Assembly (NCBI RefSeq): GCF_900099935.1
Contig: NZ_FNEK01000025.1
Location: forward strand, 1-64,000
Length of the DNA stretch: 64,000 nucleotides
Reading direction: 5' to 3'
Origin: Aliiruegeria lutimaris
Lineage (GTDB): Bacteria > Pseudomonadota > Alphaproteobacteria > Rhodobacterales > Rhodobacteraceae
Shown: piece by piece, positions 47,016-53,866 of the stretch
How the letters are laid out: every line of letters begins with the position of its first letter
Position numbering within the stretch: position 1 is the first letter of the stretch
Made by a program: the position numbers and the translations under genes
Notes under the pieces: model-generated
The model's input: only the letters and a program-made list of their open reading frames with translations
Told to the model about the DNA's origin: nothing
Database searches by the model: none

Positions 47016-48428
47016 TTACGCCGCTTCCTGGCCGGACGCCTTGATCACTACCCGGTTCCGACCCAGGCTCTTGGCGTGGTAGAGCGCCTTGTCCGCGCGA
47101 TCCAACAGTTCCGACAGCGATGCGTGCGTGCCGGCCGGCCCGCAACCATCCGTGACCAGGCCGACGGAGATCGTCTGTATCAACGTCAAGGGAGTAGCCT
47201 GCCCGTTTTTCCGGGGCAGGGTGATCGGCGCGGTGCAAACCTTTTCCCGAAGCCGCTCGGCGGCACTGAGCGCGGCGTCCGGAAAGATGTCAGGCAGGAT
47301 GGCGATGAACTCCTCGCCGCCGATCCGCGCCACCAGATCGACGCTCCGCAAGTTGCAGCTCAGCGTCTCGGCGACGGTCTTGAGCACTTCGTCCCCGGCC
47401 GCGTGTCCATGCGTGTCGTTGACCTGCTTGAAGTGATCGAGGTCGATCATCATCACCGCAAAACTGCGATCATTCGCGATCGCCCGCTCGCGGACACGTG
47501 TCAGGTGCGACATGGCATAGCGGCGGTTGTAAAGCCCGGTCAGAGGATCGGTTACCGCCATCTGCAGCCCGTCGCGGACCCGTGACCGCAGCCGGTCTCC
47601 CTGGCGTTTGCGGGCAAGCTGCGCCCGCAGACGAAGAGCCAACTCGTCATAGTCAAATGGCAGGGTGATGATGTCCGAGGCGCCCATGTCCAGCGCCATC
47701 GTGGCCGGCATACGGGCGTCCTCGTCGATCGCGATGAGAATCCCGGCATGGCGCGTGGTCTGGCGCGAGCGCAGCTCGGACAGCAACATGAGCCCTTCGT
47801 TGCTGCGCGAAAGATCCGCCGCGATCACGTAGAGATCCGGCAGCTTCGGCCCGTTGGCGTTCTTCAGCACTTCGCCGGGGGAGTGGACCTCGATCTTGTC
47901 GTGCAGTTTGCCGTCCAGCCCCCGGCGCCAGGCAAGCGCGGTGGCTTCATCGGCCGCAACAAGGCAGATCCGTCCCGCAGCCACGAATCCGCTCGTCGGT
48001 TCGGCAAAGCCGAGCGCCTGCCGGGTGCCTTCTCGCAGGGCCAGCTCAGCGGCGACGCCGCGTGCCCGTATCAACGAGCGGACCCGGGCCAGAAGACCCA
48101 GATCGTCGAGCGGCTTTGTCATGAAATCCTCGGCGCCGGCTTCCAGTGCGGCGATCTTGGAGGCAGGATCGTTGAAGGCGGTTACCATGATCACGGGTAT
48201 GTCGGCTGTGCGATGGTCGGCCTTCAGCCGCCGACAGACTTCCAGCCCATCAAGTTCGGGCATGGAAATATCCAGAAGGATCAGGTCCGGCATGTCCCGC
48301 TGCGCCAACTTCAGAGCTTCCGCGCCGCTTCCGGCCTGAAGCACGTCATAGGCGGCGCCGGCAAGTTTCACCTTCAGGATGATCCTGTTGGTGGCAACAT
48401 CGTCGACGACCAGTATTCTACCGGGCAT
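47016..48428 (-). CDS. pleD: PleD-like response regulator, diguanylate cyclase
   Basis: A 470-residue protein of REC-REC-GGDEF type. REC1 has ILVVDDVATN and LILLDISMPELDGLE (phospho-acceptor Asp), REC2 is degenerate (RICLVAADEATALAWR), and the GGDEF motif is GGEEF near residue 369, with an RxxD inhibitory site (RSVD) five residues before it. It makes c-di-GMP and is feedback-inhibited. ATG at 48428. It diverges from the DUF3572 gene. Confidence 0.9.
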   Translation of the reverse strand: MPGRILVVDDVATNRIILKVKLAGAAYDVLQAGSGAEALKLAQRDMPDLILLDISMPELDGLEVCRRLKADHRTADIPVIMVTAFNDPASKIAALEAGAEDFMTKPLDDLGLLARVRSLIRARGVAAELALREGTRQALGFAEPTSGFVAAGRICLVAADEATALAWRRGLDGKLHDKIEVHSPGEVLKNANGPKLPDLYVIAADLSRSNEGLMLLSELRSRQTTRHAGILIAIDEDARMPATMALDMGASDIITLPFDYDELALRLRAQLARKRQGDRLRSRVRDGLQMAVTDPLTGLYNRRYAMSHLTRVRERAIANDRSFAVMMIDLDHFKQVNDTHGHAAGDEVLKTVAETLSCNLRSVDLVARIGGEEFIAILPDIFPDAALSAAERLREKVCTAPITLPRKNGQATPLTLIQTISVGLVTDGCGPAGTHASLSELLDRADKALYHAKSLGRNRVVIKASGQEAA

Positions 48429-48821: not shown

Positions 48822-49517
48822 ATGTCCGAAATCCGCGGGCTTCTATTCGACAAGGACGGCACGCTTTTTGACTTCCAGGCAACCTGGGGCGGCTGGGCGT
48901 CCGATCTCATGCTAGAATTGGGTGAGGGTGACGAGGCGGTTGCGGAGCACCTTGCTCGACGGATCCACCTGAACCGTGCGGAGCGGCAGTTCGCGCCCGA
49001 GTCCGTCGTGATCGCCGGAACCGTCGACGACGCTGTGATGGCTCTGCTTCCGGGGCTGCCCCATCTCGACTATGGCAAGCTGTTCGCATGGATCGTCGAA
49101 GCCTCCGAACGCATTTCGCCGGCGCCGGCGGTTCCGCTCCTTCCGTTGATGGAACGGTTCCGGGCCGAAGGAATCGTGCTCGGCGTGGCGACTAATGACG
49201 CCGAGAGCGCCGCGCGTGTGCAGTTGGAGACGATCGGCGCATTGGGTATTTTCGATTTCGTCGTTGGAGCCGATAGCGGCTTCGGCGCCAAGCCCGAACC
49301 GGGCCAGTGCCTGGCCTTTTGCGAGGCCGTGGGCCTGCGCCCGGAGCAGGTCGCCATGATCGGGGACAGCACGCATGACCTCCATGCCGGCAAGGCTGCG
49401 GGAATGGTTCCGGTTGCTGTGCTGACGGGCCCGGCAAAGCACGAGGATCTCGCGCCATTTGCCTCCGCCGTGTTGCCCGATATCGGCCATTTACCCCGCT
49501 GGCTCGCCGGGAGCTGA
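48822..49517 (+). CDS. HAD-superfamily phosphatase (phosphoglycolate phosphatase-like)
   Basis: A 231-residue HAD hydrolase with nucleophile motif DKDGTLFDF (first Asp replaced by the pair at 10-12), motif II LGVATND, motif III Lys in FGAKPEP, and motif IV MIGDSTHDLHAG. Close to Gph-like phosphatases; substrate unknown. ATG at 48822 has GGAGGCG upstream and is 14 bases after DUF3572, so the two are likely co-transcribed. Confidence 0.82.
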   Translation: MSEIRGLLFDKDGTLFDFQATWGGWASDLMLELGEGDEAVAEHLARRIHLNRAERQFAPESVVIAGTVDDAVMALLPGLPHLDYGKLFAWIVEASERISPAPAVPLLPLMERFRAEGIVLGVATNDAESAARVQLETIGALGIFDFVVGADSGFGAKPEPGQCLAFCEAVGLRPEQVAMIGDSTHDLHAGKAAGMVPVAVLTGPAKHEDLAPFASAVLPDIGHLPRWLAGS

Positions 49518-49612: not shown

Positions 49613-51205
49613 ATGAGCGGCGACATGAACAGGGACGCGGAAACTGTCGGGGAGAAGGGCGCGCGCCGTCGGGGGCGCGGCGGAGGACGTGCCGGCAATG
49701 CCCGGCGGCAGGCCGGCGGCGTGATCGAACAGATGCCCTGGCATCTTCCGCAGAATACGGACCGGCCGACCGAACCCCTCGGCGAAGAAGGCGTTCTGGC
49801 GATTCATGACGGCGCGATGCGGGTTCTCGAAGAGATCGGAATCGAGTTTCTGAACAAGGAAGCGCTCGATCTTTTCCGGGCTGCAGGCTGTCGCGTCGAC
49901 GGCACCAATGTCCGCATGGGGCGCGATTGGGTGATGGAGATGGTGCGCAAGGCACCGGACAGTTTCACGATCACCCCGCGCAATCCGGCTCGAAGGATCA
50001 CGATCGGCGGGCGCAACATCCTGTTTGGAAATGTCTCCTCGCCGCCGAATTACTGGGATATCGAGCATGGGAAGCTGCCTGGAACCCGCAAGCAATGCGC
50101 AGACCTCCTGAAACTGACCCAATATTTCAACTGTATCCACTTCGCGGGCGGCTATCCCGTGGAGCCGGTGGATATCCATGCCTCCGTGCGTCATCTCGAT
50201 GTGCTCCACGACAAGCTGGTGCTGACGGACAAGGTCGTTCACGCCTATTCGCTCGGGCCTGAGCGGGTCGAGGACGTGATGGAGATGGTGCGCCTTGCCG
50301 GGGGGCTGAGCCACGAGGAATTCGAGACCACACCGCGGATGTACACCAACATCAACTCCACCTCGCCGCTCAAACATGACGTCCCGATGATCGACGGCTG
50401 CCTGCGGCTGATTCGGCGCGGGCAGGCGGTCATCGTGACGCCCTTTACGCTCGCCGGAGCGATGGCGCCTGTGACCATGGCGGGTGCTGTGACCCAATCC
50501 ATCGCCGAGGCGCTGTCCGCGATTGCCCTGTTTCAATGGGTTCGTCCCGGCTGCCCCTGCGTGATCGGAACCTTCACGTCTAATGTTGACATGAAGTCCG
50601 GTGCGCCGGCTTTTGGTACGCCGGAATACATGCGGGCAACGCAGATGACCGGCCAGATGGCGCGGTTCTATGGTTTGCCGCTCCGGGCCAGCGGTTCCAG
50701 CGCGGCGAATGTGCCCGACGGGCAAGCTATTTGGGAGACCTCCAACGCCCTGTGGTCGGCCGTGCAATCGGGGACAAATATCGTCTATCACGCCGCTGGT
50801 TGGCTGGAGGGGGGCTTGATCGCTAGCCCCGCGAAATTCGTCATGGATTGCGAAATTATACAGCAAATTCAACGATATTTTGATCCCGCCCTGACGGCGA
50901 CTGGCCCGGAGGATATCGCCGTGGAGGCGATCGCCGAAGTCGGATCGGAGGGGCACTTCTTCGGCACGCCGCATACCCAGGACCGATATAGCACGGCTTT
51001 CTACCAGCCGATCCTGTCCGATTGGCGCAATTACGAGGCCTGGGCGCTGGATGGCGGCAGGTGGACAGCAGAGCGTGCGCATGCGCTCTGGAAGCGGATC
51101 GTCGCGGATTTCGAACCACCGGCTCTGGAGGCCGGTATCGCCGACGAGTTGGCCGACTTCGTCGCGCGCCGGAAATCCGAAGGTGGTGCGCCGACCGATT
51201 TCTGA
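49613..51205 (+). CDS. MttB-family methyltransferase without pyrrolysine
   Basis: The 530-residue protein is of the trimethylamine methyltransferase MttB superfamily, here without an in-frame TAG, so it belongs to the non-pyrrolysine group that includes glycine betaine methyltransferase. Family segments are EDSFTITPRNPAR-like DSFTITPRNPARRITIGG, GGYPVEPVDIHA, SAANVPDGQAIWETSNAL, and HFFGTPHTQDRY. It transfers a methyl group to a corrinoid protein, which links it to the cobalamin genes. Disordered Arg/Gly-rich N-terminus (RRRGRGGGRAGNARRQ). It stands alone. Confidence 0.85.
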   Translation: MSGDMNRDAETVGEKGARRRGRGGGRAGNARRQAGGVIEQMPWHLPQNTDRPTEPLGEEGVLAIHDGAMRVLEEIGIEFLNKEALDLFRAAGCRVDGTNVRMGRDWVMEMVRKAPDSFTITPRNPARRITIGGRNILFGNVSSPPNYWDIEHGKLPGTRKQCADLLKLTQYFNCIHFAGGYPVEPVDIHASVRHLDVLHDKLVLTDKVVHAYSLGPERVEDVMEMVRLAGGLSHEEFETTPRMYTNINSTSPLKHDVPMIDGCLRLIRRGQAVIVTPFTLAGAMAPVTMAGAVTQSIAEALSAIALFQWVRPGCPCVIGTFTSNVDMKSGAPAFGTPEYMRATQMTGQMARFYGLPLRASGSSAANVPDGQAIWETSNALWSAVQSGTNIVYHAAGWLEGGLIASPAKFVMDCEIIQQIQRYFDPALTATGPEDIAVEAIAEVGSEGHFFGTPHTQDRYSTAFYQPILSDWRNYEAWALDGGRWTAERAHALWKRIVADFEPPALEAGIADELADFVARRKSEGGAPTDF

Positions 51206-51282: not shown

Positions 51283-51891
51283 ATGCATGGATTAGTAAAC
51301 AAGTCGATCCAGTGTTTCGTTCAGGACAATTACGGGCAGGTCGTCTGGATCGAGATCGCCCGGCAGATCGGAATCGAGGTCAGCGGTTTCGAGTCCATGC
51401 TGACATATGAGGACGCGCTCACGAATGCCCTGATCGAGGCCGCCTCCTGCCTGCTCGACAAGCCGGAAGATATGTTTCTGGAGGATGTGGGGACCTATCT
51501 TGTGAGCCATCCGAACACGGAAGCGATTCGGCGATTGCTGCGTTTCGGGGGGCAGACTTTCTCTGAGTTCCTGCTGTCGCTGGATGACCTGCCAGACAGG
51601 GTCCGTTTGGCGGTTCCGGATCTTCTGCTTCCGAACCTGGAATTGCTGGGAGGAGAAGACGGGCAATTCGAACTGCGTGTGGGCGGGCCGGAGCCGCGCT
51701 ATGCCTGCGTGCTCGTGGGTATCCTGCGTGCCATGGCGGATGATTTTGGCGCACTTGCCTTTCTGGAACAGGAAAGCACGACGGGCAATGGGCCGACGAT
51801 CCGCATCAGCTTGCTCGATAGCGCCTTTTCCGAAGGCCGAAGTTTCTCGCTTGCGCGCCCGACAGCCAATGCGCCGGAGCCGCAAGCATGA
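51283..51891 (+). CDS. H-NOX-like protein lacking the heme-ligand histidine
   Basis: A 202-residue protein of the H-NOX (heme-NO/oxygen-binding) family, with the N-terminus MHGLVNKSIQCFVQDNYG, YEDALTNALIEAASCLLDK, and RLLRFGGQTFSEFLLSLD. Where family members have the proximal heme His in the xxLHxRV motif, this one reads DDLPDRV with Pro104 from a CCA codon. The YxSxR propionate motif is not kept (QFELR at 128-132; only Arg may remain). It probably cannot bind heme in the normal way. ATG at 51283; its stop overlaps the diguanylate cyclase start. Confidence 0.8.
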   Translation: MHGLVNKSIQCFVQDNYGQVVWIEIARQIGIEVSGFESMLTYEDALTNALIEAASCLLDKPEDMFLEDVGTYLVSHPNTEAIRRLLRFGGQTFSEFLLSLDDLPDRVRLAVPDLLLPNLELLGGEDGQFELRVGGPEPRYACVLVGILRAMADDFGALAFLEQESTTGNGPTIRISLLDSAFSEGRSFSLARPTANAPEPQA

Positions 51892-52943
51892 GTTGCCCCG
51901 ATCATATCGCCTTGCCAATCATTACCGGCTCTGTCGGATGTCCTGCCGCACTGCCCCCTGTGTCGTTGGACGCCACCTCGCTGCAACGGCTGATGCCCAT
52001 GCATCTGGTCTTGTCTCCGGATGGCCGGATCCTCCGGCTTGGGCGAAGTTTGCGGAAATTGCGACCGGACGGAGATCTGGAAGGCGCAAATTTCTTCGAC
52101 GTTTTCGAGTTGCGCCGACCACGGGGCGCCCGAAGCGTTTCCGAGTTGCAGGCCGTCGAAGGCGGTCGTCTTTCGCTGCATTTGCGTGACCAGGCCAATG
52201 GTTGCTTCAAGGGCGTGGTCGTTCCGCTGTCAAATAGTGGCGAGGTTTTGCTCAACCTCTCCTTCGGCTTCTCCCTCGTCGAGGCGGTGCGCAGCTTCGA
52301 TCTGACAGCGGCCGATTTTGCCGGGACCGATCTTGCCATCGAGATGCTCCACCTGGTTGAGGCAAAATCGGCGGCGCTCCAGGAGTCCAAGAAACTGAAC
52401 CAGCGGCTCCAGGGGGCAATGATCGCGGCGGAGGAACAGGCCTTCACAGATACGCTGACCGGTTTGAAGAACCGGCGCGCGATGGATCATGTTCTAACCC
52501 GGCTTGGTACGGACGGCATTCCGTTCGGCCTTCTTCATCTCGATCTCGATTATTTCAAGCAGGTCAACGATACCCATGGTCATGCCGCCGGCGACGAGGT
52601 TCTTCAGGCCGTCGCCAAGATTCTTGTTCACGAGACACGTGAAAAGGACATCGCGGCGCGGGTCGGTGGCGACGAATTCATTTTGATCTTTCAGAAGTTG
52701 GTCGATGTCATGATCTTGTCAGACATTGGGGACCGGATCATCCGGCGGCTGGAGGTCCCGATTCCCTACGGCGACACGCGGCTTCGAATTTCCGGAAGCA
52801 TCGGTATCACGACCAGTGCGCATAATCCGAAAGCGGATCCCGAGAATATCCTGGAAACCGCGGATCTTGCCCTTTACGCGTCGAAACGGGCCGGGCGAAG
52901 CCGGGCGACAGTCGCACCGATTGGCGTCGGCCCGGCGGCATGA
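51888..52943 (+). CDS. H-NOX-associated diguanylate cyclase
   Basis: A 351-residue protein with an N-terminal HNOBA-like domain (LMPMHLVLSPDGRILRLGRSLRK), a coiled-coil linker (ESKKLNQRLQGAMIAAEEQAF), and a GGDEF domain (DTLTGLKNRRAMDHVL, RVGGDEF near 259) with an RxxD inhibitory site (REKD). It makes c-di-GMP and would be controlled by the H-NOX protein. The ATG overlaps the H-NOX TGA (ATGA), so they are coupled. The catalytic motif is intact. Confidence 0.9.
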   Translation: MSCPDHIALPIITGSVGCPAALPPVSLDATSLQRLMPMHLVLSPDGRILRLGRSLRKLRPDGDLEGANFFDVFELRRPRGARSVSELQAVEGGRLSLHLRDQANGCFKGVVVPLSNSGEVLLNLSFGFSLVEAVRSFDLTAADFAGTDLAIEMLHLVEAKSAALQESKKLNQRLQGAMIAAEEQAFTDTLTGLKNRRAMDHVLTRLGTDGIPFGLLHLDLDYFKQVNDTHGHAAGDEVLQAVAKILVHETREKDIAARVGGDEFILIFQKLVDVMILSDIGDRIIRRLEVPIPYGDTRLRISGSIGITTSAHNPKADPENILETADLALYASKRAGRSRATVAPIGVGPAA

Positions 52944-53056: not shown

Positions 53057-53733
53057 TTACTTCATCCAGCTGTCGTAGTCGCTGACCAGAAGATGCGTCG
53101 GGTCGGTATCCTCTGCGATATTGCAGAAGCGGCCGATAGGGGCGCGGAAGATATTGTCGGCCAGATCGTTATTGACCGTGTTGACCTCTCCTATCAGCAC
53201 ATCAGCCCCTTCGCCGCAGAAAGCACGCCAGTCGCCCGGTATCAGGGTGACGCTCTCGCCGGGCTGGAACAGCAGAACCTCGCCGGGCTTGTCGTCGCGC
53301 ACCGCACATCACGGTGCCGCCCGCAGTTTCGTCGAAATTCCCATCCGCATCGGAGCCATAAAGCTCGATCGCCATCGTCGCGCCGCCACGGTTGATGATG
53401 TCCTCGGCTTTGATCACGTGGGTGTGGAAGGGGCTGACCTGGTCCTAGCGGGAAATCACCAGCTTCTCGGCAGCACATAGCTCTGCCGCTTTGCAGGTCG
53501 CTCAGCCGTCCATTGCGAAAGGTGAAGAGAAACAGGCCCAGCTTGTCAAAATCGCCCTGTCCGTAATCGGTGATGTCCCACCTCAGGCGGGCGTCGATCA
53601 CGCTCCGGGCGATCTCGCTCCTGGCCCTGAATTCATCCGGTGTCCAATAGGCAAAGGGCGGAAGAACGAAGCCGAATTGACGGATCCTCTCGTCCGCCGA
53701 GGCCATGATCTCGTTAATCCGGGAGCGTTTCAT
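53057..53733 (-). pseudogene. D-lyxose ketol-isomerase, frameshifted
   Basis: Three partial frames together match a D-lyxose isomerase: MKRSRINEIMASADERIRQ to GRLSDLQSG (53469-53733), then IIKAEDIINRGGATMAIELYG with GSDADGNFDETAGGT in a second frame, then GESVTLIPGDWRAFCGEGAD to LVSDYDSWMK in the third. At least two frameshifts separate them, one near 53450 and one near 53290. The gene is dead. A LacI-like fragment and operator lie just upstream. Confidence 0.8.
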
Positions 53734-53866
53734 TCTGGAGCATCCTGCGGCTGCCGGGCGTCAGTCGCATGCGCTCGGTCATGGTGGGACCGAAGGGTGC
53801 GGCCTTCGACATGCTCGCGTTCGATGTTTGCCTCCCATTGGAAACCGACGCGAAGGATCATGGTTG

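Follow-up and report, generated by a model that had tools for sequence, protein, structure and literature searches.

How does an H-NOX protein act on the diguanylate cyclase encoded beside it once the histidine that ligates heme has been lost? The window analysed here, a 64,000-nucleotide stretch of the Aliiruegeria lutimaris genome, raises this question through two overlapping genes, the first of which encodes an H-NOX protein with proline at the proximal-ligand position. The features on which the argument draws are as follows.

48822–49517, + strand: HAD-family hydrolase gene, upstream of the MttB-family gene
49613–51205, + strand: MttB-family (trimethylamine methyltransferase) gene, directly upstream of the pair; Pfam MTTB, E 1.2e-217
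51283–51891, + strand: H-NOX (HNOB) gene, encoding a putative pseudo-H-NOX of 202 aa in which Pro104 replaces the proximal His
51286–51288, + strand: codon of His2, a residue that is His in 142 of 146 relatives
51529–51546, + strand: R83 R84 L85 L86 R87 F88, a group-specific block with invariant Arg and Phe
51592–51594, + strand: codon CCA of Pro104, whose counterpart in both Alr2278 and sGC beta1 is His105; alignment ungapped around the site
51679–51693, + strand: VGGPE, residues 133–137, at the YxSxR position of heme-binding H-NOX proteins; motif absent
51888–52943, + strand: diguanylate cyclase gene of 351 aa, with an HNOBA/PAS-like domain, a signalling helix and GGDEF

The heme-ligand site

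The window protein belongs to the HNOB/H-NOX fold family by both profile and predicted fold. Pfam HNOB (PF07700) matches residues 2–155 with an E-value of 4.5e-22 and 79.1 bits, against a curated cut-off of 25.5, and phmmer matches the protein to Nostoc Alr2278 at 9e-18; NCBIfam returned no match for it. In the gap-free alignment with Alr2278, 'DNLHARV' lies opposite 'DDLPDRV', which places P104 directly under the proximal histidine of canonical heme-binding H-NOX proteins and confirms what an earlier note on this DNA had read from the CCA codon. The same note held that YxSxR is lost, and this part stands, but the segment it named, 'QFELR', is not the aligned one: 'YQSTR' of Alr2278 falls on 'VGGPE'. 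The motif is kept in all six outgroup proteins and in none of 146 relatives, the window protein included.

A sequencing error at codon 104 is rejected because the 92% identical protein of Aliiruegeria sabulilitoris also carries proline, as does most of the group. A replacement His or Cys at or next to position 104 was likewise considered and discarded, none being conserved in the group.

The partner cyclase

The two reading frames, 51283–51891 and 51888–52943, overlap as ATGA, as previously described. The second encodes a protein matched by Pfam GGDEF (E 1.7e-39), and its sequence displays the features of a diguanylate cyclase: the GGDEF signature at residues 260–264, the substrate and metal residues, and an RxxD I-site. 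Across 49 relatives, the GGDEF residues, D219 and D254 are invariant and R251 is near-invariant, in agreement with the claim that the cyclase is intact. GGDEF is preceded by HNOBA (PF07701), a domain absent from the earlier note, which matches residues 26–80 (E 3.2e-7; 30.5 bits against a cut-off of 23.4) through profile positions 2–56 of 216 only, and which is matched in 37 of the 49 relatives at E 0.01. The predicted cyclase model (pLDDT 91) consists of a PAS-like domain, a long helix spanning residues 149–185 and the GGDEF domain.

A published group in which proline prevails

Within a single family of bacteria from sea and soil, the Pro-type pair is the common form. A homologue of the H-NOX protein is present in 291 of 396 sampled genomes of the same family. 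Among 60 relatives searched, 28 carry the protein, all 28 from that family, while a class-wide draw of 289 genomes gave seven matches, five from the same family and two weak ones (L070 and L071) that are canonical H-NOX proteins with His. Position 104 is Pro in 120 of 146 distinct aligned relatives and His in eight (seven in a first set of 146, eight in a later set of 146 to which Dinoroseobacter shibae was added); the remaining proteins carry Q, S, R, N, G, A, D, E or K, so that the survey counts 11 residue types. In contrast, canonical H-NOX proteins sampled from the phylum keep His in 33 of 33 cases, so chance is no issue for its loss here.

With 24 changes on the tree and rank 78 of 192, the rate of change at site 104 is average. 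Thirteen sites are changeless: G3, W22, Y42, D68, G70, R83, R84, R87, F88, G146, D153, G156 and F188. A cyclase homologue adjoins the H-NOX gene in 145 of 146 cases, and the H-NOX gene ends in ATGA at 80 of 149 loci.

Loss of the ligand is therefore not an oddity of a single pair, as the earlier note had taken it to be, but the state of most members of an entire group already in the literature. Kumar and Spiro described the H-NOX protein of Paracoccus denitrificans as devoid of the axial His, as in Rhodobacter sphaeroides, with its gene overlapping dgcA (PMC5588039). A 2022 review takes Pden_3719 as the founding example of a large H-NOX 'group 5', in which fewer than 10% of the proteins have the His, Pro predominates and Cys is not conserved; it also raises the question of how such proteins could sense at all (PMC8738867). 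On its sequence, the window protein is a member of group 5, given its homology to Pden_3719, a position 104 that is mostly Pro, the lack of conserved Cys and the GGDEF neighbour, and the ligand loss itself is already published. A homology search with the window protein finds the P. denitrificans protein (H6/L072) at 5e-25; it is 40% identical over 161 residues, carries Pro and differs by sequence divergence only. Pden_3719 and DgcA (Pden_3720) share with the window pair the Pro, the absence of conserved Cys, the overlap with a GGDEF gene and the family (PMC8738867, PMC5588039). In P. denitrificans this Pro-type protein affects biofilm formation and is interpreted as a DgcA inhibitor; an NO effect persists in hnoX and dgc mutants, and Kumar and Spiro propose an NO-dependent pathway through H-NOX (PMC5588039). 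Our analysis adds to this group the His type of D. shibae, the scattered His tips, the kept pocket with its His2 and Arg block, and a second, canonical H-NOX protein in the same genome.

Dinoroseobacter shibae and the histidine minority

Genome G065, which we take to be D. shibae DFL12, encodes an H-NOX protein (L186) with His104 (LDDLHDRARL) and no YxSxR, and genes of the MttB and HAD families occur near its pair, as they do in the window. The D. shibae protein is reported to be a heme-based NO sensor that inhibits Dgc1 (PMC8846402, PMC7232146). The D. shibae H-NOX/Dgc1 pair (Bedrunka 2018) belongs to the same orthologous group as the window pair and shares its arrangement, its MttB/HAD surroundings and its lack of YxSxR, but differs in having His104 and in being reported as a heme-based NO sensor. 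A His-bearing member reportedly binds heme and NO, so the pocket of the group is not destroyed. This reported NO response nonetheless belongs to the His minority, and the result should therefore not be carried over to the other members, Paracoccus among them.

The eight tips that carry His are dispersed: they require eight changes on the H-NOX tree and six to seven on the tree built from H-NOX plus cyclase. The His label is no more clustered than shuffled labels (171/500). Because of this scatter, the sequence data favour a group ancestor that carried proline, His having been regained repeatedly by single steps. A single ancient loss of His, with the His-bearing tips forming one clade that kept it, is disfavoured by the eight changes for eight tips and by the shuffling, although the AU test of a single His clade does not formally reject it (p 0.107 for H-NOX alone with outgroup; 0.056 for H-NOX plus cyclase) on trees limited by poor support and by the long branches of L029 and L039.

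Predicted structure and proposed mechanism

The AlphaFold model of the H-NOX protein (pLDDT 93.4) has a helix at residues 93–110 that runs unbroken through Pro104. Its top Foldseek match is Nostoc H-NOX (2o09, 1.4e-12) and its top VIA match is human sGC beta1 (Z up to 22), and both are matched over residues 1–179. VIA Z scores are 22.0 and 21.7 for NO-activated sGC (8hbf and 8hbh), and 20.4 and 19.9 for unactivated sGC (8hbe and 6jt0); the predicted model is thus marginally closer to the NO-activated conformation, in what are near-ties.

Taking sequence, model and analogy together, we consider it probable that the window protein is a heme-free pseudo-H-NOX that binds the cyclase and holds it at a set, probably low, activity independent of NO. 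The pair would constitute a split sGC-like signalling unit, distributed over two genes and with GGDEF as its output. With both the heme ligand and the propionate anchor lost, the pseudo-H-NOX would dock, heme-free, onto the HNOBA/helix portion of its cyclase and adopt a conformation resembling that of an H-NOX protein with a broken Fe–His bond. Candidate modulators, if there are any, are a protein that acts as its partner and a ligand other than heme lodged in the kept hydrophobic pocket. The suggestion in the earlier note that the regulator is fixed, or its input something other than NO, survives in this form as the best reading.

This mechanism is consistent with the two motif losses, the frequency of His in canonical proteins (33/33) versus relatives (8/146), the average rate of site 104, the 13 changeless sites, the co-occurrence of the cyclase and its HNOBA match. 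Precedent comes from sGC, in which the beta H105C variant is heme-free and activated-like in both structure and activity, and in which the alpha domain is itself a heme-free 'pseudo-H-NOX' (PMC8196705). The order of H-NOX fold, HNOBA/PAS, helix and cyclase in the window pair is that of sGC beta. In contrast, sGC is a single chain with a guanylate cyclase output, whereas here two genes lead to GGDEF, and the N-terminal extension that excludes heme from sGC alpha is absent from the window protein. Canonical stand-alone H-NOX proteins (Shewanella, Vibrio, Legionella and that at L184:3485-4030) share the fold, the hinge glycines and the pairing with c-di-GMP enzymes or kinases, but they keep His and YxSxR, of which the window protein keeps neither.

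Several observations weigh against the proposed mechanism. The hydrophobic residues that contact heme are largely kept, and the His-bearing D. shibae member reportedly binds heme and responds to NO despite lacking YxSxR. In addition, the preference for activated sGC consists of near-ties on a predicted model, and Kumar and Spiro's own proposal is an NO-dependent pathway. The literature searched contained no purified Pro-type protein, and we therefore infer the absence of heme; complex formation and the direction of the effect on the cyclase are likewise presumed.

The kept pocket and alternative readings

The pocket-lining residues L4, F96, L100, L103, P117 and L148 are kept at 96–99% across 146 relatives. 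In the human and Nostoc H-NOX proteins, Y2 and Y83 belong to the pocket (PMC6225106), and the first of these positions has become His2 in the group. A Pro-type protein could accordingly still bind heme, with the heme held solely by the hydrophobic pocket or anchored by a different residue such as His2, and sense NO or heme in a five-coordinate or ligand-switched state, much as the D. shibae member is reported to be a heme/NO protein without YxSxR. We regard this as unlikely, given that both known heme anchors are gone, that Nostoc Trp74 is Leu in the window protein and that site 104 varies much as any ordinary position does; D. shibae, because it has His104, says little about Pro-type proteins.

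The invariant, group-specific residues R83/R84/R87-F88 include an Arg triplet adjoining the position of Tyr83. Together with the conserved His2 and the kept hydrophobic lining, they would suit a pocket re-used for another small ligand, probably acidic or hydrophobic, whose binding is read through these residues. The recurrent MttB and HAD neighbours could suggest a metabolite as this ligand, and the HAD–MttB order is shared with Phaeobacter sp. G2 (L073) and the D. shibae-like genome (L188). However, the MttB gene is found in 27 of the 64 relatives' loci with at least 1400 nt of upstream sequence, that is, in fewer than half, and the invariant residues could equally form an interface with the cyclase, which leaves the re-used pocket a rather doubtful option. 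An elaborate variant is more doubtful still: heme would have been swapped for another ligand or re-anchored by His2, R83/R84/R87-F88 would relay the state of the pocket to the cyclase, and D. shibae-like lineages would have regained His and NO sensing.

Redox or zinc sensing by cysteines, raised by the earlier note and with precedent in the heme-free signalling of Vibrio cholerae H-NOX (PMC7108781, PMC8738867), is highly improbable and is rejected as a conserved mechanism, since the group alignment holds no conserved Cys column (the best are about half Cys) and hence no Vc-type zinc site of three Cys plus His/Gln, the window protein has Cys at residues 11, 56 and 142 only, and the review describes group 5 as lacking conserved Cys (PMC8738867).

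Three blocks of the window protein, RRLLRF (83–88), LRAMADDYGxL (148–158) and GRxFxL (185–190), are specific to the group and were not seen in the sampled canonical H-NOX proteins. From its position in the C-terminal tail, GRxFxL could be a contact with the cyclase.

The pair represents a very common alphaproteobacterial c-di-GMP switch, most members of which are annotated as heme NO sensors without what a heme sensor needs, and D. shibae, the one NO-responsive example reported, falls in the rare His minority. Because nature offers both Pro and His at this single site, next to the same cyclase, the function of a heme-free H-NOX protein is directly testable.

Genome context

The same genome encodes a second H-NOX protein (L184:3485-4030), which is canonical and retains both His (EIHVEVL) and YSSPR. 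Its gene is followed after 11 bases by that of a hybrid histidine kinase (L184:4042-5769) that combines kinase and receiver parts with a probable Hpt part, recognised from sequence motifs rather than by a profile search. NO sensing in this cell therefore has a candidate of its own.

Other genes near the pair were also recorded. A PleD-type diguanylate cyclase with receiver domains and GGDEF is encoded at 47016-48428 on the − strand, about 2.9 kb from the pair, and adjoins a DUF3572 gene. In Phaeobacter sp. G2 (L073), a GcvT-type gene follows the cyclase. Downstream of the window pair, a D-lyxose isomerase-like gene (53057-53760, − strand) has parts seemingly in three reading frames, with the Pfam match in one frame confined to positions 1–85 of 222; from its sequence, it looks broken by frameshifts or sequencing errors.
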